Below, piece after piece: positions 6,625 through 33,490 of a DNA stretch of 39,103 bases. The stretch's first letter is position 1. Every line of letters begins with the position of its first letter. The position numbers and the translations under genes are program-made. The notes under the pieces were generated by a model. It had not been told where the DNA came from. It made no database searches and was given only the letters and a program-made list of their open reading frames with translations. Source of the stretch: a bacterium (GTDB lineage Bacteria > Bacteroidota > Ignavibacteria > Kapaibacteriales > UBA2268); assembly GCA_030431515.1 (NCBI GenBank), contig JAUIIX010000027.1:1-39103 (forward strand), given 5' to 3'.

Positions 6625-9600
6625 ATGAAAAACATACTGTTTTATATAATATTAATACTTTCACCATTAACTATTCTTTCAGAAAATTATAAAATATCTG
6701 AAAATGAATTTGTTTTGGAATTAAATTTTAAAGATATTTTAGAAGAAGATACTCTAAATTTACCTAATTATTTGAAAAAGGATAAAGAGGGAATAAAGTA
6801 TTTAAAATTTACATTAGCTTTAAATAATAATAACATAAACGAAGTAAGAATTAATAATAAAAAAATAGATTATACTTTAGAATATTTTGATAATATTAGA
6901 AATATAGAACTTTATAATTTATTAATTCCTCAATCTATATTTACTAATAATTCAAAACTTGAAATATTATATGATAAACAAGTAGAATTAAGTGATAAGA
7001 AAGAGCTTGCTGCAAATTTATTCTCTACAGTTATTAATAAAAAACATCTGAACACATTATTAAAAAAGAAATACACTAAAGCAAAAATAAATCTTTTAAA
7101 TAATGATGATAAGTGGTATGATTACGAAACTAAATATTTAAAAATTATCACAAATCGAGATGCAATTTATAAAATTGATATTAATAGAATTATAGATGAA
7201 TTTGGTGCAATAAATATTTCAAACTTACATATTTCAAATAATGGTTGTGAGTATAATAATTTCTTTATCAAATCAAATGACAATATTATTTCAAGTGATG
7301 ACGAATTTTATTTGTATGGGCATATCGCAAAAGGTGATACTACCTATTATGAGCATTACACTAGTAATGTTATATTTTATTTATACTATGACGCATCTAA
7401 AACTAATAATTCACTAAAACTTATTGAAAATAATAATCCTAATGAACTAAAATATGTTAATAGGAATATCCATTTTGAAGAAGAATTAGAGTATTCCTAT
7501 GGTGATGATTTTAGAATTGTATCTACCAAAAACAACTACAATGAAGGGTGGGTTTTGAAATCCCTTGATGCTTCAGTAAAAGATTTAAAATCATTTACTT
7601 ATAATTCAATATTTTTTCCTTATAATAAAGAAATTGAAATAGTTAATAGATATTCTACTATTAATTCATTTTATAAAGATAGTTTGTTTAATATTTTCAA
7701 CATTCACCATCATCTAAATAATACTTTGTCTGACACGAGCTTAGTTGGTAAATATCAAAAAATTGATTACAAATATAAAGTAAATAATTCACTTTTGGGT
7801 GTTAATTCACTAAAAGTAGAAACTAAAGAATATTTGAATAATTTTGGATTATACGAACCAAGTAAAATTGCAATAGATTATTTTGATGTTAATGGTAAAT
7901 TCTATCCAATAGCAAATGATGGACGTATTGAATTCACATCTAATGAAAACAATGACAATTTTGTAAATATTCTAAATTTGACTGATAATAAAGCAATATC
8001 TATTGATACTAACAATAAGACAATAGAGTTTGTCAATGCAGTTAATGAAGATTTTATTTCTGGTGGAATTAATTTTCTTTCAAATTATTCAACTTTAGTT
8101 TATAATTCAACTTCAATACATTCGAATGAAAAATCAATACTTATAATCTATAGTCTAAATGATGAAATAAAAAGTTTATCAACTAAATCAATAGATGAAG
8201 TTAATAAAATATTATCTTCTAATCTTAAAAGTTTTGTCATACTATCAAATCTTGAAGATATAGGGAGTTTAAATAATACATTAAAAGATAAAGGTATTAC
8301 TACGAGTTCTAAAAATTTTATTGCCGGTAAATTTGGGAATGAAATTAAATATAAAGATCTGAGTATTAATGATAATAATTATATTTCGACTATAAAATGG
8401 GAAAATGCAATATCAAAAACTGCAAAAGTTAATATTAATAAAGGTAAAAATCATATATTTGTCTCTGACTATAAATCATTATTAAATCCTGAATACGAAA
8501 AAACTACATTTGGTAATTTAAGAAGTTCTGAAAATAGAGCTGATATTCTTTATGTAACCCATTCATCACTTAAAGATGGAGTTCAAAAATATCTTGATTA
8601 CAGAAAATCTACTCATCCAGACTTAACCTTTAAAGTAGTTTATATTGAAGATATTTATAATGAATTTTCAGCTGGAAAAGAAGGTCCTCAAGCTCTTAAA
8701 AGATTTTTAGAATATGCCTATCATAACTGGGAATCACCAAAATTCTCTTATCTTTACCTTATTGGTGAAACAAGTTGGGATAGTGATCTAAAAGGAAAAG
8801 ATGCGAAAGTAATTAGTTTAGTTCCAACTTTTGGACTTCCTGTATCAGATATTTGGTATAATAATTTAGACACAACTAACAAGAGTAAAGAAGAAATTTT
8901 TACATCACGATTAACCGCAAAAGATAATCAAGAAATTGAAACTTACCTTAATAAACTAAAAGAATTTGAAAAGAATACTGCAGCACCTTGGTTTAAAAAC
9001 ACCCTTCAAGTTATAGGAGGAGGGGAACATGAAAAAAATACGTTAAGATACTATACAGATATTTCATTTAGAGAATTATTTAACTCTAATTTAGGGGTTG
9101 ATACTACTATAATTGCTTCTACTACATTTAGTAAATGGAATAATGAATTAAGTAATGAAATAAGAAAAAAAATTAACAATGGTGTTCTTTGGACAAATTT
9201 TGCAGGTCACGGAGCTGTAAAAGTTTTTGATTTTGATGGTTGGGCAGAAACTCAGTTAAATAATTTTGGAAAAACTGGAATACTTAGTACAATATCTTGT
9301 AATACTCTCGCTTTTGGTGAGTCAGCTACTCCTTGGTCTAGAAATGAAGCTTATATAATGTATCCAAAGACTGGATTTGTATTCACTTATGGTGGAACAA
9401 CTTTAGGTACAGTTGGTATTCAAAATCATATATTAACGGAAATGCTGAAATCACTTTCTGATGAAAATTTGAATCTAAGAAATGTATTAGAAATTAAAAA
9501 TTATGGAACAAGTAGTATTGAAGGATTTGATGTCACTTTTCTAACATTTAATACACTTGGCGATCCATTAATTGAAATCCCAATTTCAAAAAAAGTTGAA

Positions 9601-12138
9601 TTATATTCATTGGAAAACGAAGTACTAATATCAAGTAAATCTAATTTTATATCAGTTGATGATACTCTCGTTAATCTTTCTGCTAAAATTTATAATAATG
9701 GAATATGTACAGATTCAACAGTTAAAGTTAAGATTATTCATACTTATGGAGAAAATCAAGAAGAGTATTATACTACTTTAGAAAAGATTTGTGCCTATTC
9801 TGAATTTAATTTAGATATAAAAACGCATTCATATTTAGGATTACACAAAATTGAAATTAATATAGATCCAGACAATGATTATGATGAAAATGATAAAAAT
9901 AATAATATTGTTACAATCACATATAACGTTTTTGCTAAAAATATTTTACCAATAGAGCCAAAAAATAATTGGAATATTTCATCTTCGAACCCTAAATTCA
10001 AATTCTTTGACCCAAGTTTTGATAAGAATAAAGAATACAAATTCGTTTTATCATATAATGGAAAATCAATTGAATCTAATATGGAAGAATTGATAATTGA
10101 AGATGAAGCATTTATTTCTTGGATTCCTAATATTCAGATAGAAAATGGTATTGATGTAAAGTTAAATTATGAAATATCAAACGACGAAAATTCAATAAAA
10201 AATCAATATTTACAATTACACACTAAAGAAGTATTAGAGAATAATACAAAATTGAAATTAGATTTGAATAAAGTTATCACAAAGAATTTAACAATGATAA
10301 ATAATTCTTTCCAAATAAAAGATGATACTTTGGATTATGCATTCAAATCAAATAATGGACCCTTAAGAGAAAAAGATCAAGACCCATACCACACTGTAGA
10401 TTTTCAACTTGGTGATGATAAATTGTTAGCACTTACGGTTGCTGAGACTGGAATCTATTCTGTAAGAGTTAGTAAATATAATAAATATGAACCAATTGTA
10501 AGATATTATGAGACATATGGATATAAGGGAGCTGATAAATTTAAAGATGATGCTATTGATTTTATAAAAATGTTGAATGATAGTATAAGTAATGATGATT
10601 ATATTTTCTTAACAGTTATTGGGTCAGGGATGCACGGCTTTCAAAAAGTATGTGGACGCAATGAATACTGCTATATCGACAGTTTAAAGGAAGTTTTAAA
10701 ATTCAAATTCAATGCGACATTAACAGATACTTTAAAATACAACGATGATAATATTTATAGTGGTTTAGTAGGATATACTTTATTTTCCTCTCCAGATTTT
10801 GATTCTTCTGAAGTAAATGAGAAAGTTGGCTTATATGAAAATGAGATTTATACACGCCCAGATATTGAAGGTAAATTATTACAATATAATTTAGATGCAA
10901 GTATCGATATTCCAGTAACTAATAATGTAGAACATTGGCATTCTATAAAAGTTGAAGGTCAATCAAACAATTCTACAATAAAATTAGAAATTTATGATGA
11001 GTCAAATAAACTAATTGAAGAAATAGAAAATTACAATTTTAATGAAGAAATAGATTTATCAAAGTATAATAATCAAAAAATATCATTCAAATTAAATTTA
11101 CAAAGAGCTTCTAAATCAACTAATTTATCAATAAATGATATTATTCTATCTTACAAAGCATATCCAGAATTAGGAATAGTAAAAACAAATAATGATATTG
11201 ACACTTTACTAAGAGGAGATGATTTTTCTATAGATTATTCAATCAAAAACTACTCTTTTAGAAATGATATTTTTGACATTAAATATTCACTTAGAAATAA
11301 TAATCAACTTATTTTTGAAAAGAATATCGATACTTTAGCCAAATCAACTTCTATTCATTTAAATGATACTATTATTACGAATAACCTATCGACTGAAAAT
11401 ATATTTATACATAATTTGAATAATCATTTCAAAAACAAAGAAGATATATCAAATAATAATCAGATTCAAAAACATTTGTATATATATGAAGATACAATTC
11501 CTCCAGTTTTAAAAGTCTATTATAACGATCAACTTGTATATGACCAAATGTATATATCAGAAACTCCTCTTATGAAAGTAGAAATGTATGATAACTCAAA
11601 ATTACCTATAAACGAAGTAAGTAAATTTAGTAGAGTAAAACTAAACAGATTTATTGATGAGAATGAATTAATATTTAATAATGATTTTAACTTTAAAAAA
11701 GATGGAAACTTAAAAGCAACTATTGAATTTACAAGCGATTATATTGAATTTGGAGAATATAACACAAACTTCCTAACAATAACTGCAGAAGATGCTTCTG
11801 GAAATGATACTACAGTTTCATATTATTTGAATTTAGCTCGATTAGTTTCAATCAAAAATTTCATTCCTTATCCAAACCCATTCTCAAACGAATTGTATTT
11901 AGAATTTGAATACAAAGGAAGTATAGAGCCAATAGAAGGGGAGATAATTGTATTTGATGTAAGTGGTCGATTAATTAAGAATTTACCAATGAAGGATATC
12001 AAAGTAGGTAAAAATTCAATCTTATGGGACACTTACTCAAATGAGGGATCCACTATCGCCGTCGGGAATTATATTGTACTTATAAAACTTAACAATGGCT
12101 TAAATCAAAAAGAATCTGCGATTATTCAGAAAAAATAA
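6625..12138 (+). CDS. C25-family (gingipain/PorU2-like) protease with T9SS C-terminal domain
   Basis: This is a 1837-residue secreted protein. A signal peptide covers about residues 1-19. A long beta-rich N-terminal region follows, and the C25 cysteine-protease domain begins near ENRADILYVTH (residue 636). The catalytic dyad is visible as FAGHGA with His862 and TISCNTLAF with Cys892, a spacing close to that in gingipains. Downstream, CARDB/Ig-like modules precede a segment (about 1265-1390) resembling the interleukin-like ILEI domain found in PorU2-type proteins. The last ~90 residues (from IPYPNPFSNELYLEF, 1747) form a type A T9SS sorting domain ending NYIVLIKLNNG..ESAIIQKK. True PorU sortases lack such a tail, so this is better called PorU2-like or a secreted C25 protease. 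It starts 45 bases after the upstream terminator and lacks an obvious Shine-Dalgarno. Confidence 0.87.
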   Translation: MKNILFYIILILSPLTILSENYKISENEFVLELNFKDILEEDTLNLPNYLKKDKEGIKYLKFTLALNNNNINEVRINNKKIDYTLEYFDNIRNIELYNLLIPQSIFTNNSKLEILYDKQVELSDKKELAANLFSTVINKKHLNTLLKKKYTKAKINLLNNDDKWYDYETKYLKIITNRDAIYKIDINRIIDEFGAINISNLHISNNGCEYNNFFIKSNDNIISSDDEFYLYGHIAKGDTTYYEHYTSNVIFYLYYDASKTNNSLKLIENNNPNELKYVNRNIHFEEELEYSYGDDFRIVSTKNNYNEGWVLKSLDASVKDLKSFTYNSIFFPYNKEIEIVNRYSTINSFYKDSLFNIFNIHHHLNNTLSDTSLVGKYQKIDYKYKVNNSLLGVNSLKVETKEYLNNFGLYEPSKIAIDYFDVNGKFYPIANDGRIEFTSNENNDNFVNILNLTDNKAISIDTNNKTIEFVNAVNEDFISGGINFLSNYSTLVYNSTSIHSNEKSILIIYSLNDEIKSLSTKSIDEVNKILSSNLKSFVILSNLEDIGSLNNTLKDKGITTSSKNFIAGKFGNEIKYKDLSINDNNYISTIKWENAISKTAKVNINKGKNHIFVSDYKSLLNPEYEKTTFGNLRSSENRADILYVTHSSLKDGVQKYLDYRKSTHPDLTFKVVYIEDIYNEFSAGKEGPQALKRFLEYAYHNWESPKFSYLYLIGETSWDSDLKGKDAKVISLVPTFGLPVSDIWYNNLDTTNKSKEEIFTSRLTAKDNQEIETYLNKLKEFEKNTAAPWFKNTLQVIGGGEHEKNTLRYYTDISFRELFNSNLGVDTTIIASTTFSKWNNELSNEIRKKINNGVLWTNFAGHGAVKVFDFDGWAETQLNNFGKTGILSTISCNTLAFGESATPWSRNEAYIMYPKTGFVFTYGGTTLGTVGIQNHILTEMLKSLSDENLNLRNVLEIKNYGTSSIEGFDVTFLTFNTLGDPLIEIPISKKVELYSLENEVLISSKSNFISVDDTLVNLSAKIYNNGICTDSTVKVKIIHTYGENQEEYYTTLEKICAYSEFNLDIKTHSYLGLHKIEINIDPDNDYDENDKNNNIVTITYNVFAKNILPIEPKNNWNISSSNPKFKFFDPSFDKNKEYKFVLSYNGKSIESNMEELIIEDEAFISWIPNIQIENGIDVKLNYEISNDENSIKNQYLQLHTKEVLENNTKLKLDLNKVITKNLTMINNSFQIKDDTLDYAFKSNNGPLREKDQDPYHTVDFQLGDDKLLALTVAETGIYSVRVSKYNKYEPIVRYYETYGYKGADKFKDDAIDFIKMLNDSISNDDYIFLTVIGSGMHGFQKVCGRNEYCYIDSLKEVLKFKFNATLTDTLKYNDDNIYSGLVGYTLFSSPDFDSSEVNEKVGLYENEIYTRPDIEGKLLQYNLDASIDIPVTNNVEHWHSIKVEGQSNNSTIKLEIYDESNKLIEEIENYNFNEEIDLSKYNNQKISFKLNLQRASKSTNLSINDIILSYKAYPELGIVKTNNDIDTLLRGDDFSIDYSIKNYSFRNDIFDIKYSLRNNNQLIFEKNIDTLAKSTSIHLNDTIITNNLSTENIFIHNLNNHFKNKEDISNNNQIQKHLYIYEDTIPPVLKVYYNDQLVYDQMYISETPLMKVEMYDNSKLPINEVSKFSRVKLNRFIDENELIFNNDFNFKKDGNLKATIEFTSDYIEFGEYNTNFLTITAEDASGNDTTVSYYLNLARLVSIKNFIPYPNPFSNELYLEFEYKGSIEPIEGEIIVFDVSGRLIKNLPMKDIKVGKNSILWDTYSNEGSTIAVGNYIVLIKLNNGLNQKESAIIQKK

Positions 12139-23893: not shown

Positions 23894-26800
23894 ATGAGAT
23901 TATTTACCCTATTATTAGTAATTTTTACTAATATTACCTTCGCAAATTGGATTAAGCAAAATCCACCCTCAGTTGAGAATTTCAACGACATATATGTTTC
24001 CAAAACTTCCGACCTTGCCTATATTGTAGGTAATAATGGTATAATGTATTTATCAGAAAATGCTGGTACTACTTGGTCACAAAAGTCAAGTAACCTTATA
24101 ACAGGGAATATTAACTCTGTATTCTTTTATTCAAATAATGTTGGATATGTTACAACAAGTGATGGAGGTGTCTTTATAACTTTAGATAAAGCAAACACTT
24201 TTTCTAAACAATTCACAAGTAATAATAATGAAAGTATTAATGATTTAACATTTAGTTGGATAGATTCGTCTTATGTGCATATAGTAGGTAATGATGGTTT
24301 ATATAGGAAATCTACTAATGGTGGGCAAAGTTGGGTGGTAAAAACATTTTCAACTGAGAAATTAGATGTAAACTTTGGAAATATTGTAGGTAATAGCGGT
24401 ACTGTATATTATACTACAAATGGTGGTAATGACTGGACTTCCAAAACAATAACAGGTATTACTGAAAACCTAAATAGTATTGACTATACAGGTGCTAATA
24501 ATATATTTATTACAGTTGGAGATAATGGTAAAATTGGAAGAACTACTAATAGCGGTCAAAACTGGCAATTAATTACATCAAATACAAATAATAACCTACT
24601 TAGTGTGAACTTCACTACTAATCCTAATATTGGATATATCGTTGGAGATGGTGGGATAATTTTAAAAACAACAGATGCTGGGCTAACTTGGAATCAACAA
24701 AACAATGCTGATAATACTAATCTAAATTCAGTAGCGTTTAAAAATAATGCAATTGGAATTGCTGTTGGAAATGCAGGAACAATTCTTAAAACAATTAGTG
24801 GTGGACAAAATCAATCTTTAACATTAAACTACCCACTTGGTAATGAAACATGGAGTATTGGAGAGCAAGTTAAAATTAGATGGTCACAAAACGCACTTAC
24901 TAATGTAAAAATTGAAATGACTAAAGATAATAAAAACTCTTGGGAACAATTATCAACTGTGGATGCTAATCTTGGCGAATATTCATTTACTGTAGGAAAT
25001 CCAATTTCAGAAGATGTTTTTGTTAGAGTTTCTGATGCTGACAACCCTGCTTTATTTATGGAAAGTGCAAAGTTAAGAATTACTAATTTTTTATTGACTT
25101 TAACTTCTCCTACTTTAAATCAAGAATTAAATATTAACTCAAATCATTTAATTAAATGGACAAGTACTAATATTAGTCAAGTTGATATATTATTTTCATC
25201 AAATAATGGAAATACTTGGAATTTAATTGGTGATAATATTCAAGCAAGTAACAATCAGTTTTCTTGGGCAATTGGAAACACTCCAACTCAACAAGCTAAA
25301 ATTAAAATAGAAAATAGTGCAGATGCCACTCAATTTGTAGTTTCTCAACCATTCAAAATTATTGGAGCGAGTTTATTTTTGCTTAATCCAAATGGCGGTT
25401 CTTATGACGCAGGCGACGTAGTAAATATCCAATGGCAATACCAAAATTTAGATAAAATTAATATCGATTATACTACTAATGGAGGAGTTTCTTGGGCAGG
25501 AATTGCAAATAATTTTAATGCAAGTATTGGTGGCTATTCATGGATAGTACCTTACAAACCAGGTCAAGCACAAATTAGAGTAATGAGTTCAGCAGATAAC
25601 ACATTATTCGATATTTCTGAAAATTCATTTACAATTAATGGATATAACCTTACAATATTAAACCCACTTGGCGGCTCATATTCAGCTGGCTCTAACATCA
25701 ATATACAATGGCAAGCAGATCCAAGAATTTCAAATGTTAAAATCGAGTATTCTTCAAATGGTGGAACAAATTGGACAGTTATCAATAATTCAGTTCTTGC
25801 TTCTAACGGTTCATATTTATGGACTACACCAAACACAGCAGGCGAAAATTATAAAATTAGATTAACAGATAATTCTGGTCAAATAATTAAAGTATCAAAT
25901 ACATTTTCACTTTCTTCATTAAGAATAACATCACCTTTAACTAATACAACTCTAAAGGCAAATACTGAGTATTTAGTTAAGTGGGAAGCAATTGGGTTTT
26001 CGAGTGTTAAACTTACTTACTCTCAAGATAATGGAAATACTTGGAATATAATTGCTCCAAATGTATTAGCTCCTCAAAACCAAATAAATTGGACAACACC
26101 TAATATTAATCAAGCAGTTTTACTAAGAATTGAAAGTGCAAGTGATAATACTAAAAATCACATAATCAATCTAAACTTAGAAAAAGCAATGATTACTGTT
26201 ACTGCTCCTGAAACAAATTTATTTAATAGAGCAGGCGAAAAAATTAATATTAATTGGAATTCTAATTTAGTGGAATTTGTTAATATTTCTTATTCAGTTG
26301 ATAATGGAGCACCAATTTCAATCGCAAATAATGTATTTGCAAGTCAAGCTTCATTAACTTGGACCGCTCCTAATATTGAATCAAGTCAAGTGAAAATTAG
26401 AATCGAAGATGCTACAAATAATTTAATTTTCGGTGAATCTGGCTATTTCGGAATATCTAATGATGTAATCACTATCTTATCTCCAAACGGCAATGAAATT
26501 TGGAATCAAGGTGAAACAAGAGAAATTAAATGGACTGCATCTGACGCTACTTTAGTAAATATCGAATTATCAAACGATAACGGTCTAACTTGGAAAACAA
26601 TCGCTACAGATGTAAATGGACAAATGCCTTACCAATGGAAAATCCGCACTAATCCAGGAGCCAAATCATTAATAAAAGTATCAGATGCTAATAAACCAGG
26701 CATCTATGACAAAAGTGGTTTGTCTTTTGTGATTAATGGTTTAGACTTGATTTCTCCAAATGGAAATGAAACTTACATTTTAAGTACAATGGAACAAATA

Positions 26801-29131
26801 ACTTGGAAATCTGTTGGTGTTAGCAAAGTTAACATTTATTATTCAAATAATAATGGAACAACTTGGAACGAAATAGTTAAAAATTATCCATCTGCTTCTG
26901 GTTTCTATAATTGGAATATTCCAGCTGTTACAGGAAATCAATTTAAGATTAGAGTTCTTGACCCAACAAAAACAAATTTCTTAGACATAAGCGATAACAC
27001 ATTTAACATCAATGGAATAAAAATCACATCTCCAAAAAGTGGCGATAAATTACTTTTCGGAACAAATCACACAATTTCATTTGATAAATATAGCATTCAA
27101 AATGTAAAAATTGAACACAGTACGGACAACGGAACAACTTGGTACACTGTTATAGCTCATCAAAACGCTTCAACAGGTCAATATTTATGGAATGTTCCAG
27201 AGATGCCAGGCACTTTAAATAAACTAAAAGTATCAAGCATCGAAATCCCAACCTTATATGACATTACATCTGGTAATTTTGAGATAATGGAACAAGGAGT
27301 AGCAGTTATATATCCAAATGGTGGAGAAAATCTAACTGCAAACGCTTCACAAACAATTACTTGGGCATCAGCAAATATTGATTCAGTTAAAATAGAGTAT
27401 TCTGCTAATAATGGTCAAACTTGGAATTTTATCACAAATGCTACTAAAGCATCTAATAAATTCTATGCTTGGACAACGCCAAATATCAACGGAGTAAATT
27501 ATCAAATTAGAATTACTGACACAAAAGTCGCTGAAATCACAGATATTTCAAACTCAAACTTCTCAATTGTCGGTGGTGAGAATATTCTACCTGATGATTG
27601 GAAATTTACAATGGGAACTGGGAAAAATAGCCATATCATAGTACCTGCTAATATAAATCCTAAAGTTGGAAATATTACTATTGAAGTGGGCGATGTTATT
27701 GGTATTTTCCATAAAGACAATGGTGTTATGAAGTCTGCTGGATATGGTACTTGGACAGGACAAGACATTGCTATAACTGCATGGGGCAATAACTCATTAA
27801 CTACAGTAAAAGATGGATTTGACGACAACGAAACATATAATGTTCGAGTTTGGGATAAATCTACTGGTATAACTTATGATGTAACAGTAACATACTCAAC
27901 TGGAAATTCCTACTTCCTTGAAAATAGTGTTTCAGTTATATCTTCATTCGAAACTCAAAGACCTTTCAATATCAACTTAGAAGGTGGAACTTGGCAATTA
28001 ATTTCATCAAATTTAACACCGATAAACTCTGCTATTACCAACGTAATGAAAGACGTTAAAGATGAAATTGAATATATGAAAAACCAACAAGGACAAATTT
28101 ACTACCCAGACCAAAACATAAATCAAATTGGAAATTGGGCTGTTAAAGATGGTTATCAAATCTACTCTAATAATGATGCAACATTATCAATTATTGGAAA
28201 TACTTTAACTCCATCTGATTATTCATATACTTTTAATGCTAACTTCTGGTATATAATATCTTATTTGCCATCTGAAAGTAGAAGTATAGCATCAGTTTTC
28301 AATAACTTAAACAATGTAATCTTAGTTAAAAACTCGGCAGGGGAGATTTACTACCCAGCATTTGGAATCAATCAAATAGGTACAATGCACCCAGGCGAAG
28401 GATACCAAGTAGCAGTTAGTCAAAACTCACAATCATTCTCATACACTAATAATCCACCAGTAGCTCCAGCAATTCCTGGTGTTATTCAAAGCGATGAAAA
28501 AGAAGATACTTACTATCAAACTGAAATCAAAAAAACAGGAAGTTCTGCTGTCTTAATATTCAATAATATAGAAATGTGGGACGGAGAAATCGGAGTATTT
28601 GACTCTTATGATAGATTAGTTGGTAATGGCAAAATTAATAGCGAATACAACTCAATTACAATTTGGGGAGACAATCCAATTAGTTTTGACAAAGACGGAG
28701 CAAGAGACAATGAAAAACTTAGATTAGAGTTTTACGACTATGGAACTCAATCAGTTAGAAAAGTCGAAATAGAACAAATATTTGAAATGACTACAAGTGC
28801 AAACCTTGGAAAAGAGTTGTTATACAAAAAAGATGCAATATTTAACATCGAAGCAACTAAAGTTTACGCAAGTATTACCGATAATTTACTAAGAACATCA
28901 ATTTATCCAAATCCAAGTCAAGAAACAATCTACTTGAACATAAACGGAGAAGGTAAATACGATATTCAAATAATTGATATGACAGGAAATGTTTTTTTAT
29001 CAAGAAATGCTAATATAACAGGACAATCAACATTGAAATTAGAAGTTGGTAATTTATCAACTGGCTCATACATAATAAATATTATTGGAAATAGAAGTAT
29101 CAGCACACAAAAATTTATAAAAATCGAATGA
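23894..29131 (+). CDS. Giant T9SS-secreted protein: YCF48-like repeats plus ~10 Ig-like repeats
   Basis: This is a 1745-residue exported protein. The signal peptide ends near residue 17 (..NITFANW). Residues ~18-305 form YCF48-like beta-propeller repeats, each with a GNNG/GDNG/GDGG turn and a TTNGG..W motif. Residues ~310-1226 hold about ten tandem Ig-like modules of ~91 residues, each opening with a P.G/PNG motif, then I.W, V.I.YS.NNG..W and a closing W..P. A further segment (about 1230-1660), including DDWKFTMGTGKNS and paired YYP..NQIG elements, precedes a type A T9SS sorting domain (from IYPNPSQETIYLNI, ~1670-1745). The product is probably a cell-surface or released adhesin-like protein. 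AAGGA (23882-23886) lies upstream of ATG 23894. Confidence 0.88.
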   Translation: MRLFTLLLVIFTNITFANWIKQNPPSVENFNDIYVSKTSDLAYIVGNNGIMYLSENAGTTWSQKSSNLITGNINSVFFYSNNVGYVTTSDGGVFITLDKANTFSKQFTSNNNESINDLTFSWIDSSYVHIVGNDGLYRKSTNGGQSWVVKTFSTEKLDVNFGNIVGNSGTVYYTTNGGNDWTSKTITGITENLNSIDYTGANNIFITVGDNGKIGRTTNSGQNWQLITSNTNNNLLSVNFTTNPNIGYIVGDGGIILKTTDAGLTWNQQNNADNTNLNSVAFKNNAIGIAVGNAGTILKTISGGQNQSLTLNYPLGNETWSIGEQVKIRWSQNALTNVKIEMTKDNKNSWEQLSTVDANLGEYSFTVGNPISEDVFVRVSDADNPALFMESAKLRITNFLLTLTSPTLNQELNINSNHLIKWTSTNISQVDILFSSNNGNTWNLIGDNIQASNNQFSWAIGNTPTQQAKIKIENSADATQFVVSQPFKIIGASLFLLNPNGGSYDAGDVVNIQWQYQNLDKINIDYTTNGGVSWAGIANNFNASIGGYSWIVPYKPGQAQIRVMSSADNTLFDISENSFTINGYNLTILNPLGGSYSAGSNINIQWQADPRISNVKIEYSSNGGTNWTVINNSVLASNGSYLWTTPNTAGENYKIRLTDNSGQIIKVSNTFSLSSLRITSPLTNTTLKANTEYLVKWEAIGFSSVKLTYSQDNGNTWNIIAPNVLAPQNQINWTTPNINQAVLLRIESASDNTKNHIINLNLEKAMITVTAPETNLFNRAGEKININWNSNLVEFVNISYSVDNGAPISIANNVFASQASLTWTAPNIESSQVKIRIEDATNNLIFGESGYFGISNDVITILSPNGNEIWNQGETREIKWTASDATLVNIELSNDNGLTWKTIATDVNGQMPYQWKIRTNPGAKSLIKVSDANKPGIYDKSGLSFVINGLDLISPNGNETYILSTMEQITWKSVGVSKVNIYYSNNNGTTWNEIVKNYPSASGFYNWNIPAVTGNQFKIRVLDPTKTNFLDISDNTFNINGIKITSPKSGDKLLFGTNHTISFDKYSIQNVKIEHSTDNGTTWYTVIAHQNASTGQYLWNVPEMPGTLNKLKVSSIEIPTLYDITSGNFEIMEQGVAVIYPNGGENLTANASQTITWASANIDSVKIEYSANNGQTWNFITNATKASNKFYAWTTPNINGVNYQIRITDTKVAEITDISNSNFSIVGGENILPDDWKFTMGTGKNSHIIVPANINPKVGNITIEVGDVIGIFHKDNGVMKSAGYGTWTGQDIAITAWGNNSLTTVKDGFDDNETYNVRVWDKSTGITYDVTVTYSTGNSYFLENSVSVISSFETQRPFNINLEGGTWQLISSNLTPINSAITNVMKDVKDEIEYMKNQQGQIYYPDQNINQIGNWAVKDGYQIYSNNDATLSIIGNTLTPSDYSYTFNANFWYIISYLPSESRSIASVFNNLNNVILVKNSAGEIYYPAFGINQIGTMHPGEGYQVAVSQNSQSFSYTNNPPVAPAIPGVIQSDEKEDTYYQTEIKKTGSSAVLIFNNIEMWDGEIGVFDSYDRLVGNGKINSEYNSITIWGDNPISFDKDGARDNEKLRLEFYDYGTQSVRKVEIEQIFEMTTSANLGKELLYKKDAIFNIEATKVYASITDNLLRTSIYPNPSQETIYLNINGEGKYDIQIIDMTGNVFLSRNANITGQSTLKLEVGNLSTGSYIINIIGNRSISTQKFIKIE
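24820..27575 (+). repeat. Ten tandem Ig-like coding repeats (~270 bases each)
   Basis: Inside the giant T9SS protein, successive modules align by their openings (LNYPLGNETW, LTSPTLNQEL, LLNPNGGSYD, ILNPLGGSYS, ITSPLTNTTL, VTAPETNLFN, ILSPNGNEIW, LISPNGNETY, ITSPKSGDKL, VIYPNGGENL) and by a central YS.NNG..W motif. The copies are divergent at both protein and DNA level, so expansion appears old. Confidence 0.8.
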
Positions 29132-29611: not shown

Positions 29612-32107
29612 ATGAATATAGATTCAACACAGAAAAAAAGCTTAGTAATAGGATATTTATTATCTTTAATTCTAATTATTATGACATTAATCTCGAGAAG
29701 AGGTGTTTTAGAAGTCCAAGATGCTAATATAATAGTTTTCTTTATTGGTTTATTACTTACTTTAGCTTATTTAACGAGCTTACAATTAAATAAAGCAGTA
29801 AGATTTAGATTTTGGAAAACTGATAAAGCATTTTTAACTATAACTTTGTCACATTTTCTATTACTCTGTTTTATATTAAATAATAGTATAGAAATATTTG
29901 GATATTTTCCTGCTTGGGTAATGGTGTATCTAATCTATTTTATCATTTCATTTCAAGCTTTTGGTATAATAAATCAGTTTAGCTCTCATTTTAAAAATAT
30001 AATATATTTCTCTCTTGGAGTTGGTTTTATTTTCATATTATACTTAGCTTTGTTTTTAATCCCTTACTATTTTATTGGACTAATTGGGTTAATATTCTTA
30101 GGTTTAACAATAAATTTATTCATTCCACTAATTATCGTAATTTCAATAGTTACTATGCTTGTAAGAATTGAGAATACTAAAAAAAACATTATGTTTTTTA
30201 TAGCAGGAATAGTGACTCCTTTGCTTTTAACTTCAATATTTTTAACAAGATGGAACTCTCTTCATAAAGAAATACACAAAGCTCATTCTTCAATTATATT
30301 AAGACCAGATAACAATCTTCCAACTTGGGTATTGTTAAGTCAAAAAATTTCTTCTGATTCATTTACAGCTGATATTATTAAAGGAGAGTATGTATTCGAT
30401 ACTTTTTCAAGAGTTTGGGGAGGAAACGGATTTAATAGAAATTTTGATGAAAGAAGAACTCATGACCCTCTTGTAAATATTGGAATTTCACTTTTTGGTG
30501 AAGTCAATTTAGATATAGATACGAGAATAAAACTTTTAAAGTCGAATTTTAATGCAAGACACCAGAGCCATCGAAGGTTATGGTCAGGTAGGAATTTATC
30601 AACAATAGATGTATTAAATAATATTAAGGTTTACCCAGACTTTAGACTTGCATATACTGAGAAAATTATCACAATAAAAAATAGTTCTAATTGGTCAAAT
30701 TATCAAGAAGAAGCAGTATATACATTTCATCTACCTGAAGGTTCAGTTGCTACATCATTATCACTTTGGATTGAAGGGAAAGAAGAAAAATCTAGATTAA
30801 CAACAAAATCCAAAGCTGATAGTGCTTATGTTAGCATAGTTGGTGTAGAACGAAGAGATCCAGCTCTTTTGCATTGGCAAGAGGGTAATCGACTATCGGT
30901 TACAGTTTTTCCTTGTACTCCGAAAGAGAATAGAATATTTAAAATTGGAATTACAACTCCTTTAGAATTTGATGGGGAAACTTTACAATTAAATAGTATA
31001 TATTTTGAAGGACCCTACCTTAAAAATACACTTGAAACAAGCGTAATAGAAATCGTCTCTGACAATAAAGTAGAAATTATAGACATCCCAAGTGGATTCA
31101 ATAAAGATGAAGGTAATAAATATATTTATACAGGGGAATATAGAAATGATTGGAAATTATCTTTGGAAACGCCACCACTCTCTAAATCAAAATTCTCTTA
31201 TGGTGATTATAGTTATCAAATGATAGAAAGAAAAACTGATTGGGAATCTAAAGAATTTGATAATATCTACCTCGACATAAATAAAAGTTGGGATGAATCT
31301 GAATTTAAATCAATAATAAAACAAGCAAAAGGTAGAAATGTTTATGTTCATTATGATAAAATGATTAAAGTTGAAAATATTAATGAAAACGAAATATTTG
31401 ATAAATTAAATAATAGGAATTTTAGTTTATTTCCTTTTGATGAGATTGTTAATCCTAAAAAATCAATTCTTATTACAAAGTCTGAAGAATTGTCCCCAAA
31501 TTTATCAGATATTAATGATACCAAATTCTATAAAAACTTGACTGAAGGATTAATGAAGCATAAAAATAAAATAAATATTTTACAATTAGGAAGAGTTAGC
31601 TCACCCTATATTAAGACACTAAAAGAATATGAATTGTTTAATTTTTGTAATGGAGATGAAGAGAATTTGACTAAAGTATTATCAAAGAACATTTTCCCAA
31701 AAGGTGTAATGGATACTAACAGAATTGATATTGATATTGCTGATTTAAGTATCATAAGAGATACAAACCTAGTTAAATCAAAAGCCCCAGATCATTTATT
31801 AAGATTATTTGCTTATTCAAACTTAATGAATAAATATGGTAATGATTATTTTAATAGTGTCAACAAGGAGGTTGAAGAACTAGTAAATATAGCTAATGAA
31901 GCTTATATCGTTAGTCCTGTATCAAGTCTTATTGTATTAGAAACAACAAAGGATTACGAACGATTTGGTATTGATGAAAATGAGAATAGTCTAAAAAATG
32001 CATCAATGAAGTCTTCAGGAGCTGTACCTGAGCCACATGAATGGGTATTGATTGGAATATTCAGTTTGATATTAATTCTACTTTATAGAAAGAGGTTTCT
32101 GTCTTGA
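29612..32107 (+). CDS. XrtN-system VIT domain protein with PEP-type C-terminal sorting signal
   Basis: This 831-residue membrane protein is the dedicated partner of exosortase N. Roughly six or seven hydrophobic helices fill residues 10-225. An extracytoplasmic region follows, with a vault-protein inter-alpha-trypsin (VIT)-like domain at about 345-465 (LAYTEKIITIKN, EAVYTFHLPEGSVATSLSLW, RRDPALLHW). A further domain contains LPELS-free segments and ends with AYIVSPVSSLIVLETTKDYE, a phrase typical of VIT-type exosortase targets. The last 30 residues form the sorting signal: VPEPHEW (805-811), a 14-residue hydrophobic helix, and RKRFLS. Known family behaviour is recognition and processing at the PEP motif by the cognate exosortase. 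The function of the VIT protein itself is unknown. Its TGA overlaps the exosortase start. Confidence 0.87.
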   Translation: MNIDSTQKKSLVIGYLLSLILIIMTLISRRGVLEVQDANIIVFFIGLLLTLAYLTSLQLNKAVRFRFWKTDKAFLTITLSHFLLLCFILNNSIEIFGYFPAWVMVYLIYFIISFQAFGIINQFSSHFKNIIYFSLGVGFIFILYLALFLIPYYFIGLIGLIFLGLTINLFIPLIIVISIVTMLVRIENTKKNIMFFIAGIVTPLLLTSIFLTRWNSLHKEIHKAHSSIILRPDNNLPTWVLLSQKISSDSFTADIIKGEYVFDTFSRVWGGNGFNRNFDERRTHDPLVNIGISLFGEVNLDIDTRIKLLKSNFNARHQSHRRLWSGRNLSTIDVLNNIKVYPDFRLAYTEKIITIKNSSNWSNYQEEAVYTFHLPEGSVATSLSLWIEGKEEKSRLTTKSKADSAYVSIVGVERRDPALLHWQEGNRLSVTVFPCTPKENRIFKIGITTPLEFDGETLQLNSIYFEGPYLKNTLETSVIEIVSDNKVEIIDIPSGFNKDEGNKYIYTGEYRNDWKLSLETPPLSKSKFSYGDYSYQMIERKTDWESKEFDNIYLDINKSWDESEFKSIIKQAKGRNVYVHYDKMIKVENINENEIFDKLNNRNFSLFPFDEIVNPKKSILITKSEELSPNLSDINDTKFYKNLTEGLMKHKNKINILQLGRVSSPYIKTLKEYELFNFCNGDEENLTKVLSKNIFPKGVMDTNRIDIDIADLSIIRDTNLVKSKAPDHLLRLFAYSNLMNKYGNDYFNSVNKEVEELVNIANEAYIVSPVSSLIVLETTKDYERFGIDENENSLKNASMKSSGAVPEPHEWVLIGIFSLILILLYRKRFLS

Positions 32108-33432
32108 AAGTAAATTTAAGCAAAGAAAACTTGATATCAATTGCTTCAATTCTTATAATACTTGCCTTAGGATATAATCGTCTTAGCGAGTATTTGGTAT
32201 TTGATTTTAGTCTTATTTTGTTTATAATGGTACTACCATTTTTAATTACATATAAAACTAATATCATTTCCTTTCGTTATGGAATTGTATCTTTATTATT
32301 ACTATCTTTGTTTTTTATTTTCAAATTAGATACACTTTATTTCTTTTCAGTTGTAAGCAGTTTGTTTTTTATCTATGAATCAAGATTTGGGAAATTAACC
32401 AACATTCCCATTTTATTATTAATGATAATTTCTCCAACAAGCCAACATCTAAATAATGTAGTTGGTTTTGAAATAAGACTTAAGCTAACAGAATGGGCAG
32501 GAATAATATTAAATTATTTTTACGATGATTTAAAACAAGTTGGAAATCAAATTTTAATATCTGGAAATCCATTTTCTGTTGACCCAGAGTGTATGGGCTT
32601 AAATATGATGGTGATAAGCTTTTTTATAGGAATAGTTTTTATTGCTTTAGAACAAAAAAAGAATAATTCAAGATATAGCTATTTAAGTATATTTAGTATT
32701 CTATTTTTATCTTTTATTCTTTCATCACTATCCAATTTAGTAAGAATAATATTATTAATTATGTTTGAATCACCTCCAAATACAATATCACACGAATTTA
32801 TTGGTGTTTTCTGTTTTAGTTTGTACGTAGTAATTCCATTATGGTTTATAGTTAAAAGAATTCCTAATAAAATCTACTATCCAGAAAAAATAAAGAATAT
32901 CATTCATTCAAAAAAATCCATATATTTAATTTTAACTCTTATATTAGTTTTATTTTTTTCTATTAAATTTGGAAATTTTAAAAAGCAAGATAACAATCAG
33001 CTCAATTTTAAGTCAATCAATATAAACACATCTGAATTTATTTGTAATAAAGAACGATTAGGTGTTCTAAAATATGAAAAAAAAGATATATTACTTTATA
33101 TCAAACCAAGTGTAAACTTTTATGCATCAGATCATTCTCCAATAGTATGTTGGAGAGGTAATGGTTATAATATCCAAAATGAAACAACCATAAAATTAAA
33201 TGGAATTGATATCTACTTTTGTACACTTTCTCAGAATAACGATGTTTTATATTCAACTTGGTGGTATGATTCAGGTGAAGACAAAACTAAGTCTCAATTT
33301 AAATGGCGTACAGAAACTTTGATAAATGGTAGAAAATACAGATTAGTAAATGTAATAAGTTATGATAAGGAGAAGTTACTATCCGAAACTGAGAAGTTAT
33401 TAAAAACAAAATTATTTAATAATAAAGAATGA
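32104..33432 (+). CDS. xrtN: Exosortase N with fused EpsI-like C-terminal domain
   Basis: This 442-residue integral membrane protein of the exosortase/archaeosortase family has about eight membrane helices up to residue ~295. The catalytic residues are visible in conserved positions: Cys163 in DPECMGLNMM, Arg214 in SSLSNLVRI and His230 in SHEFIGV. A soluble C-terminal region (about 300-442) contains DHSPIVCWRGNGYNI (His344, Cys349), resembling EpsI-type partner proteins, so sortase and accessory appear fused. The start is TTG at 32104, overlapping the TGA of the VIT gene as TTGA. No ATG fits, and the overlap implies coupled translation. Exosortases process PEP-CTERM-like signals, and the upstream VIT protein carries the only such signal recognised here. 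Confidence 0.88.
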   Translation: MKVNLSKENLISIASILIILALGYNRLSEYLVFDFSLILFIMVLPFLITYKTNIISFRYGIVSLLLLSLFFIFKLDTLYFFSVVSSLFFIYESRFGKLTNIPILLLMIISPTSQHLNNVVGFEIRLKLTEWAGIILNYFYDDLKQVGNQILISGNPFSVDPECMGLNMMVISFFIGIVFIALEQKKNNSRYSYLSIFSILFLSFILSSLSNLVRIILLIMFESPPNTISHEFIGVFCFSLYVVIPLWFIVKRIPNKIYYPEKIKNIIHSKKSIYLILTLILVLFFSIKFGNFKKQDNNQLNFKSININTSEFICNKERLGVLKYEKKDILLYIKPSVNFYASDHSPIVCWRGNGYNIQNETTIKLNGIDIYFCTLSQNNDVLYSTWWYDSGEDKTKSQFKWRTETLINGRKYRLVNVISYDKEKLLSETEKLLKTKLFNNKE

Positions 33433-33460: not shown

Positions 33461-33490
33461 AAAAAAAAAACCGAATTATTATTCGGCTTT
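33461..33490 (-). terminator. Terminator between convergent exosortase N and NAD kinase genes
   Basis: CCGAAT (33471-33476), loop TATT, ATTCGG (33481-33486). The 10 A's at 33461-33470 form a T run on the minus strand, so it is strongest for the NAD kinase operon. CTTTATT on the plus side may also serve the exosortase operon. Confidence 0.8.

Follow-up and report, generated by a model that had tools for sequence, protein, structure and literature searches.

A VIT-domain membrane protein and its dedicated exosortase N in a Kapaibacteriales genome

The window analyzed here is positions 1 to 39,103 of contig JAUIIX010000027.1 (assembly GCA_030431515.1) of a bacterium of the order Kapaibacteriales, Bacteroidota, and it carries a gene for a VIT-domain membrane protein followed by the gene for exosortase N (XrtN), its presumed processing enzyme (Table 1). 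The pair is an ordinary member of the named, experimentally untouched exosortase N/TIGR04477 family; what is new here is that the target would stay bound to the inner membrane after a cut by XrtN, and that, in relatives, an envelope-associated regulatory cassette recurs upstream of the pair.

Table 1. Features of the VIT–XrtN locus, in positions of the window
Feature	Position	Strand	Basis and remarks
XrtN-system VIT protein	29612..32107	+	831 aa, ATG start; TIGR04477 match; sole exosortase N target
N-terminal membrane domain, about 7 predicted helices, residues 5-229	29624..30298	+	AlphaFold2, hydropathy; positive-inside, N-terminus inside
VIT domain, residues 352-445	30665..30946	+	PF08487; fold match to inter-alpha-inhibitor heavy chain 1 (ITIH1)
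Predicted vWA-like domain, residues 551-717, degenerate metal site D555-x-N557-x-S559-W560	31262..31762	+	AlphaFold2, ITIH1 match, column counts
Sorting signal of AVPEPHEW (804-811), a helix and a basic RKR end	32021..32104	+	invariant P-E-P-x-E-W; one copy per genome
AAGAGG ribosome-binding-like site	32090..32095	+	8 nt 5′ of the TTG start; conserved in congener L035
Exosortase N (XrtN)	32104..33432	+	442 aa, TTG start; TIGR04476 match
Active-site residues Cys163 (32590-32592), Arg214 (32743-32745), His230 (32791-32793)	32590..32793	+	invariant in 69/69
XrtN C-terminal EpsI/DUF3485-like domain (putative)	33037..33405	+	weak DUF3485 matches; second invariant residue group
Bidirectional terminator-like hairpin	33467..33490	.	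separates xrtN from the convergent NAD kinase gene

Identity and layout of the two proteins

A sequence-only reading of this DNA had placed a VIT protein with a VPEPHEW sorting signal next to exosortase N, and profile hidden Markov model searches bore this out far above both family cut-offs. TIGR04477 (XrtN system VIT domain-containing protein) covers the first open reading frame (ORF) end to end with 861.8 bits (cut-off 250), and TIGR04476 (exosortase N) scores 332.2 bits on the second (cut-off 200; model positions 6-406 of 406). The general exosortase/archaeosortase signature TIGR04178 (39.9 versus a cut-off of 23) and the Pfam family Exosortase_EpsH (PF09721, above cut-off) were found in XrtN as well, and the VIT domain PF08487 in its neighbor (39.2 bits versus the Pfam cut-off of 26.5). 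Relatives were found at 80 loci when genome contigs were scanned; almost all of these carry the label Bacteroidota (Sphingobacteriales, Chitinophagales, Cytophagales, Saprospirales, Marinilabiliales and Flavobacterium), and one is labelled Chlorobi.

Across 69 aligned XrtN proteins, Cys163, Arg214 and His230, already singled out as the catalytic residues, are invariant, as are G147, N211, G234 and P245, and nothing in the alignment speaks against the assignment. The C-terminal domain holds further invariant positions (K334, H344, P346, C349, W350, G354, W386, W387 and N416); those of residues 344-354 (window 33133-33165) form H-x-P-x-x-C-W plus G354, a second invariant Cys/His set beside the protease triad. 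This region gave weak matches to DUF3485/EpsI (PF11984) in 14 of the 69 members, the window included (best E 0.006; window 11.5 bits versus a cut-off of 26.1, E 0.24), which are consistent with an exosortase carrying a fused EpsI-like domain but fall short of proof. A Mog1/PsbP/DcrB-like identity of the domain drew only weak matches (Z under 8) and was not relied on. XrtN was modelled by AlphaFold2 with a mean predicted local distance difference test (pLDDT) score of 89.5; no solved exosortase structure turned up by sequence or fold search.

The AlphaFold2 model of the VIT protein, made from a 77-sequence alignment (mean pLDDT 89), has helices in a membrane domain that extends as far as residue 229, a soluble region at residues 329-720, a helical part with the conserved segment VSPVSSLIVLE, and a final helix at 808-830. 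Helix count, hydropathy, the model and the charged loops (KAVRFRFWKTDK, which links helices 2 and 3, and RIENTKK, ahead of the last helix) together point to an inside N-terminus, a periplasmic ectodomain and an inside RKR tail; no cleavable signal peptide was evident from model or hydropathy. Both target and enzyme are multi-pass membrane proteins, as had been noticed, but a multi-pass target is not unusual for this branch, since MSEP-CTERM and TIGR02921 PEP_integral are already in NCBIfam and MSEP-CTERM is homologous to the window protein, which itself misses the cut-offs of both models (TIGR04286, 72.4 bits versus 150; TIGR02921, 22.6 bits versus 200).

For the ectodomain, Foldseek retrieved ITIH1 with an E of 9e-14, and the structural match (Z 16.5, next unrelated row Z 9.9) spans residues 326-783 with 391 residues at a root-mean-square deviation of 7.5, a high value that may reflect VIT and vWA domains rotated relative to each other. 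The predicted ectodomain would therefore have a VIT-vWA fold like that of the inter-alpha-inhibitor heavy chains, the likeness being at fold level only; the sequence match to human ITIH4 is weak (E 0.09) and takes in the VIT domain and a VTPLTSMVV segment. The DxSxS metal-binding motif of vWA domains was not found, the window having D-x-N-x-S, and among the 77 relatives the Asn occurs in 71 and the last Ser in 38, while Trp560 is present in all 77; canonical metal binding by this vWA-like domain is thus doubtful.

At the C-terminus, VPEPHEW (residues 805-811) is followed by a helix and RKR. G803, P806, E807, P808, E810 and W811 are invariant across the 77 relatives, and a profile of the C-terminal 35 residues displays invariant G, V, P, E, P, E and W. 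The PEP-CTERM model PF07589 misses this tail, and its search of the window's own genome gave one match elsewhere, below the cut-off (E 8.4). The tail is a distinct GAVPEPHEW variant outside PF07589 PEP-CTERM.

One enzyme and one target

Targets were sought by profile and pattern searches in 16 whole genomes holding the pair. The tail profile found exactly one strong match in each, namely the VIT protein (E 5e-12 to 1e-18), with the next-best match in any genome at E 0.011; in the window's genome the top match has an E of 1e-18 and the next one 0.62. A degenerate motif pattern run on the DNA hit four places in the window's genome, the VIT gene among them. Many PEP targets in this genome were ruled out by the tail profile, the PF07589 search and the DNA pattern, and the earlier proposal of one enzyme with one dedicated target held in all 16 genomes. 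On the enzyme side, one XrtN-like match was obtained per genome, and 14 of the 16 had no other exosortase match. The window's genome is one of the two that do: its second protein (G000:C42, 170 aa) is XrtH/XrtX-like, lies below every exosortase-subtype cut-off and is possibly an unnamed exosortase type. The gene for it (locus L003, 1405-1917) overlaps a family-less 208-aa ORF (1890-2516), and a J-domain ORF lies upstream.

The two families also travel together. In a phylum sample of 395 genomes, the 4 in which one family clears its cut-off are also the 4 in which the other does, and the pairwise distances of the two proteins co-vary over 69 genomes (Mantel r 0.94, reached in 0 of 999 permutations), to which shared species history contributes. 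L035, which comes from a genome of the same genus, is nearest to the window in the tree (support 100), and the two target proteins are 77% identical. Measured against this congener, target and enzyme have dN/dS ratios of about 0.06 and about 0.07, with dS near saturation, and judged from these ratios both genes are under strong purifying selection. The target was found in 3 of 123 genomes of the window's own order, so the module is patchy there; the L035 pair sits at a location different from that in the window, showing that relocation or rearrangement of the module took place within the genus, and a WYL-domain regulator lies 80 nt ahead of it (L035, 3737-4750). The substrates and functions of exosortases are mostly unknown and many act on multiple targets; a strict one-enzyme, one-substrate pair for which a structure is predicted and a clear candidate cut site can be named makes an unusually clean case for showing what exosortases do.

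Gene order and the upstream cassette of relatives

The VIT and XrtN ORFs overlap by the four bases TTGA (32104-32107), exactly where the sequence-only reading had put the overlap and the TTG start. The two ORFs are in different frames, which rules out a VIT-XrtN fusion and leaves no room for the description 'translationally fused'. The TTG start is credible, because the AAGAGG site lies 8 nt upstream and both site and TTG, at spacing −4, are conserved in L035. Over 75 loci the VIT-to-XrtN spacing is −4 or −1 in 30, 0-20 nt in 19, and larger in the rest, up to 430 nt; overlap is thus frequent but not required, and translation of the two genes may be coupled, such coupling being common and inessential. 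With the hairpin downstream and 480 nt of intergenic DNA 5′ of the VIT gene, the two genes look like a two-gene transcription unit. Terminator-like sites in the region exceed expectation (4 observed versus 0.9 expected); sigma-70-like promoter matches equal the shuffled expectation and were disregarded.

The gene directly upstream of the VIT gene (23894-29131) codes for 1745 aa, and its product combines YCF48/BNR-like and reelin-like repeats with a type IX C-terminal sorting domain. The 1837-aa product of the gene at 6625-12138 contains Peptidase C25 as well as a FlgD-like Ig domain and is similar to PorU, the sortase of type IX secretion, so the genome probably uses type IX sorting too. A plasmid-borne origin was dropped, with no plasmid match obtained.

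In relatives whose loci include enough flanking DNA, the VIT gene is almost always followed by that for XrtN. Clustering of the upstream genes revealed a two-gene cassette ahead of the pair, on the same strand every time, in 20 of the 64 loci with at least 3.4 kb upstream. One of its genes encodes a membrane protein of about 210 aa that matches no Pfam or NCBIfam family, the other a winged-helix regulator (PF13601), and 6-90 nt separate the regulator from the target gene in nine of the 20 loci. These loci belong to Paludibacteraceae, Sphingobacteriaceae, Saprospiraceae, Hymenobacteraceae, Chitinophagaceae, Marinilabiliaceae, Flavobacteriaceae and other families. Examples of the cassette are L054 5599-6515 and L149 6692-8955, among many. 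Its membrane protein, which carries the segment IRxLMERSSRFISLSGLSG, occurs once per genome in 19 of 21 XrtN genomes. It is present in 98 of 296 phylum-sample genomes, so the cassette stands as a unit independent of XrtN; the genes that come after it in those genomes encode CreD, DUF4153 proteins or, in just one of the four MSEP genomes of the sample, exosortase K and an MSEP-CTERM VIT target. CreD itself stands between cassette and VIT gene in six XrtN loci, and its loss compromises envelope integrity in Stenotrophomonas (PMC4689548). Read from gene order, the cassette, the CreD linkage and the effect of CreD loss suggest that many Bacteroidota have the XrtN pair in a regulon for envelope maintenance. 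For the exosortase N family, this linkage with creD and the winged-helix cassette offers a first functional hypothesis.

The claims that the module is regulated and self-contained thus fared unevenly: the winged-helix cassette supports regulation in relatives and is missing from the window's genome, while 'self-contained' is fair for the window's genome and for that genome only.

A probable membrane-tethered target, alternatives and known systems

We consider that the pair is probably a dedicated two-protein inner-membrane system, in which XrtN would trim the last helix of the VIT protein in the service of envelope maintenance. The target would insert through its seven or so N-terminal helices with the N-terminus inside, placing the ITIH-like VIT and vWA-like ectodomain in the periplasm, and one C-terminal helix would re-enter the membrane and end in RKR. 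XrtN, as an integral cysteine protease, would recognize G-A-V-P-E-P-H-E-W at the periplasmic face and, using Cys163, Arg214 and His230, cut at or near PEP, by which only the last helix would be removed. The new C-terminus might be left free or be joined to a membrane or envelope amine, related enzymes being suspected transpeptidases (PMC11980579). The ectodomain would remain tethered via the 7-helix domain, and losing its other anchor would either mature the protein or switch it, in a presumed role in maintaining the cell envelope. Since a cut at VPEP, of the kind presumed for related enzymes, leaves the ectodomain on seven helices, surface export is unlikely and an inner-membrane, periplasm-facing device likely; the 'surface machine' earlier envisaged does not fit a target that keeps its N-terminal anchor after any such cut.

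Several points weigh against this reading. No observation of cleavage of any XrtN target is reported, and our literature search found no paper naming exosortase N. The envelope link is drawn from neighbors in relatives, while those in the window (NAD kinase, the protein with the type IX sorting domain and phenylacetate genes) give no hint of it; the cassette membrane protein is absent from both Kapaibacterium-type genomes among the 21 XrtN genomes, the window's included, and two thirds of the relatives have the pair without an adjoining cassette. In L059, moreover, the neighbor of the VIT gene is not XrtN, and the exosortase of that genome lies on another contig.

Three alternatives were weighed. 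Regulated proteolysis, in which the PEP cut serves as a signal that alters the 7-helix domain (sensor or channel-like) in an envelope-stress response, would suit the cassette linked to the pair in 20 of 64 loci and the precedence of the same cassette to creD and exosortase K/MSEP-CTERM elsewhere; but with the cassette absent from the window's genome and nothing indicating conditional cutting, we hold it to be rather unlikely. Classical PEP-CTERM sorting, by which the exosortase frees the protein and the ectodomain reaches the cell surface or exopolysaccharide layer, draws on a tail that is a textbook motif-helix-basic signal and on the part that other exosortases play in traits of the surface or the biofilm (PMC12188702; XrtF in Flavobacterium johnsoniae, PMC10936215). 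It is nonetheless improbable, as the further helices, about seven, and the lack of an evident cleavable signal peptide would leave the target in the inner membrane after a PEP cut, and no exopolysaccharide gene was found among the identified neighbors of the window pair. That the two proteins form a stable, uncleaved complex in the membrane, with the conserved tail as a docking helix, would fit the strict one-to-one pairing, co-variation and usual adjacency too, but is very improbable given a protease triad invariant over deep divergence and a P-E-P-x-E-W that resembles the cleavage motifs of processed relatives.

Returning to the tethered-target reading, a more speculative extension, to which we give little credence at present, is that the XrtN and XrtK pairs can stand in for each other as effector modules in an envelope-stress regulon of Bacteroidota, under an undescribed membrane-protein/winged-helix sensor cassette, with removal of one of two anchors of a VIT-vWA protein as the switch that repairs or remodels the envelope.

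Compared with known systems, the window pair shows no essential difference from the exosortase N/TIGR04477 family: it is full-length above both cut-offs, with order and adjacency as in nearly all relatives, and is marked by the TTG start, the −4 overlap and the lack of an upstream cassette. Archaeosortase ArtA with PGF-CTERM is a distant relative with a Cys-based catalytic triad and a tripartite signal (PMC11980579); it differs in acting on the S-layer glycoprotein with lipid attachment and is related to XrtN by sequence only through TIGR04178. The GlyGly-CTERM paper of 2011 (PMC3237569) described bacterial VIT/vWA proteins that are sorted by a dedicated LPXTG sortase, by rhombosortase or by exosortase; these systems share the VIT/vWA-family ectodomain and, where the signal is LPXTG, one dedicated target encoded next to its processing enzyme, whereas they have other tail signals, and the window protein adds the N-terminal 7-helix domain and a decayed metal site. 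The closest different system is exosortase K/MSEP-CTERM (TIGR04287/TIGR04286), a homologous but separate family: there too an exosortase lies beside a VIT-domain target, and homology between this target and that of the window extends over the VIT domain and the membrane helices just before it (hhalign 99.3%, E 3e-20, 330 columns), while the tail motif is MSEP and XrtK, of 166 aa, is without the extra C-terminal domain.

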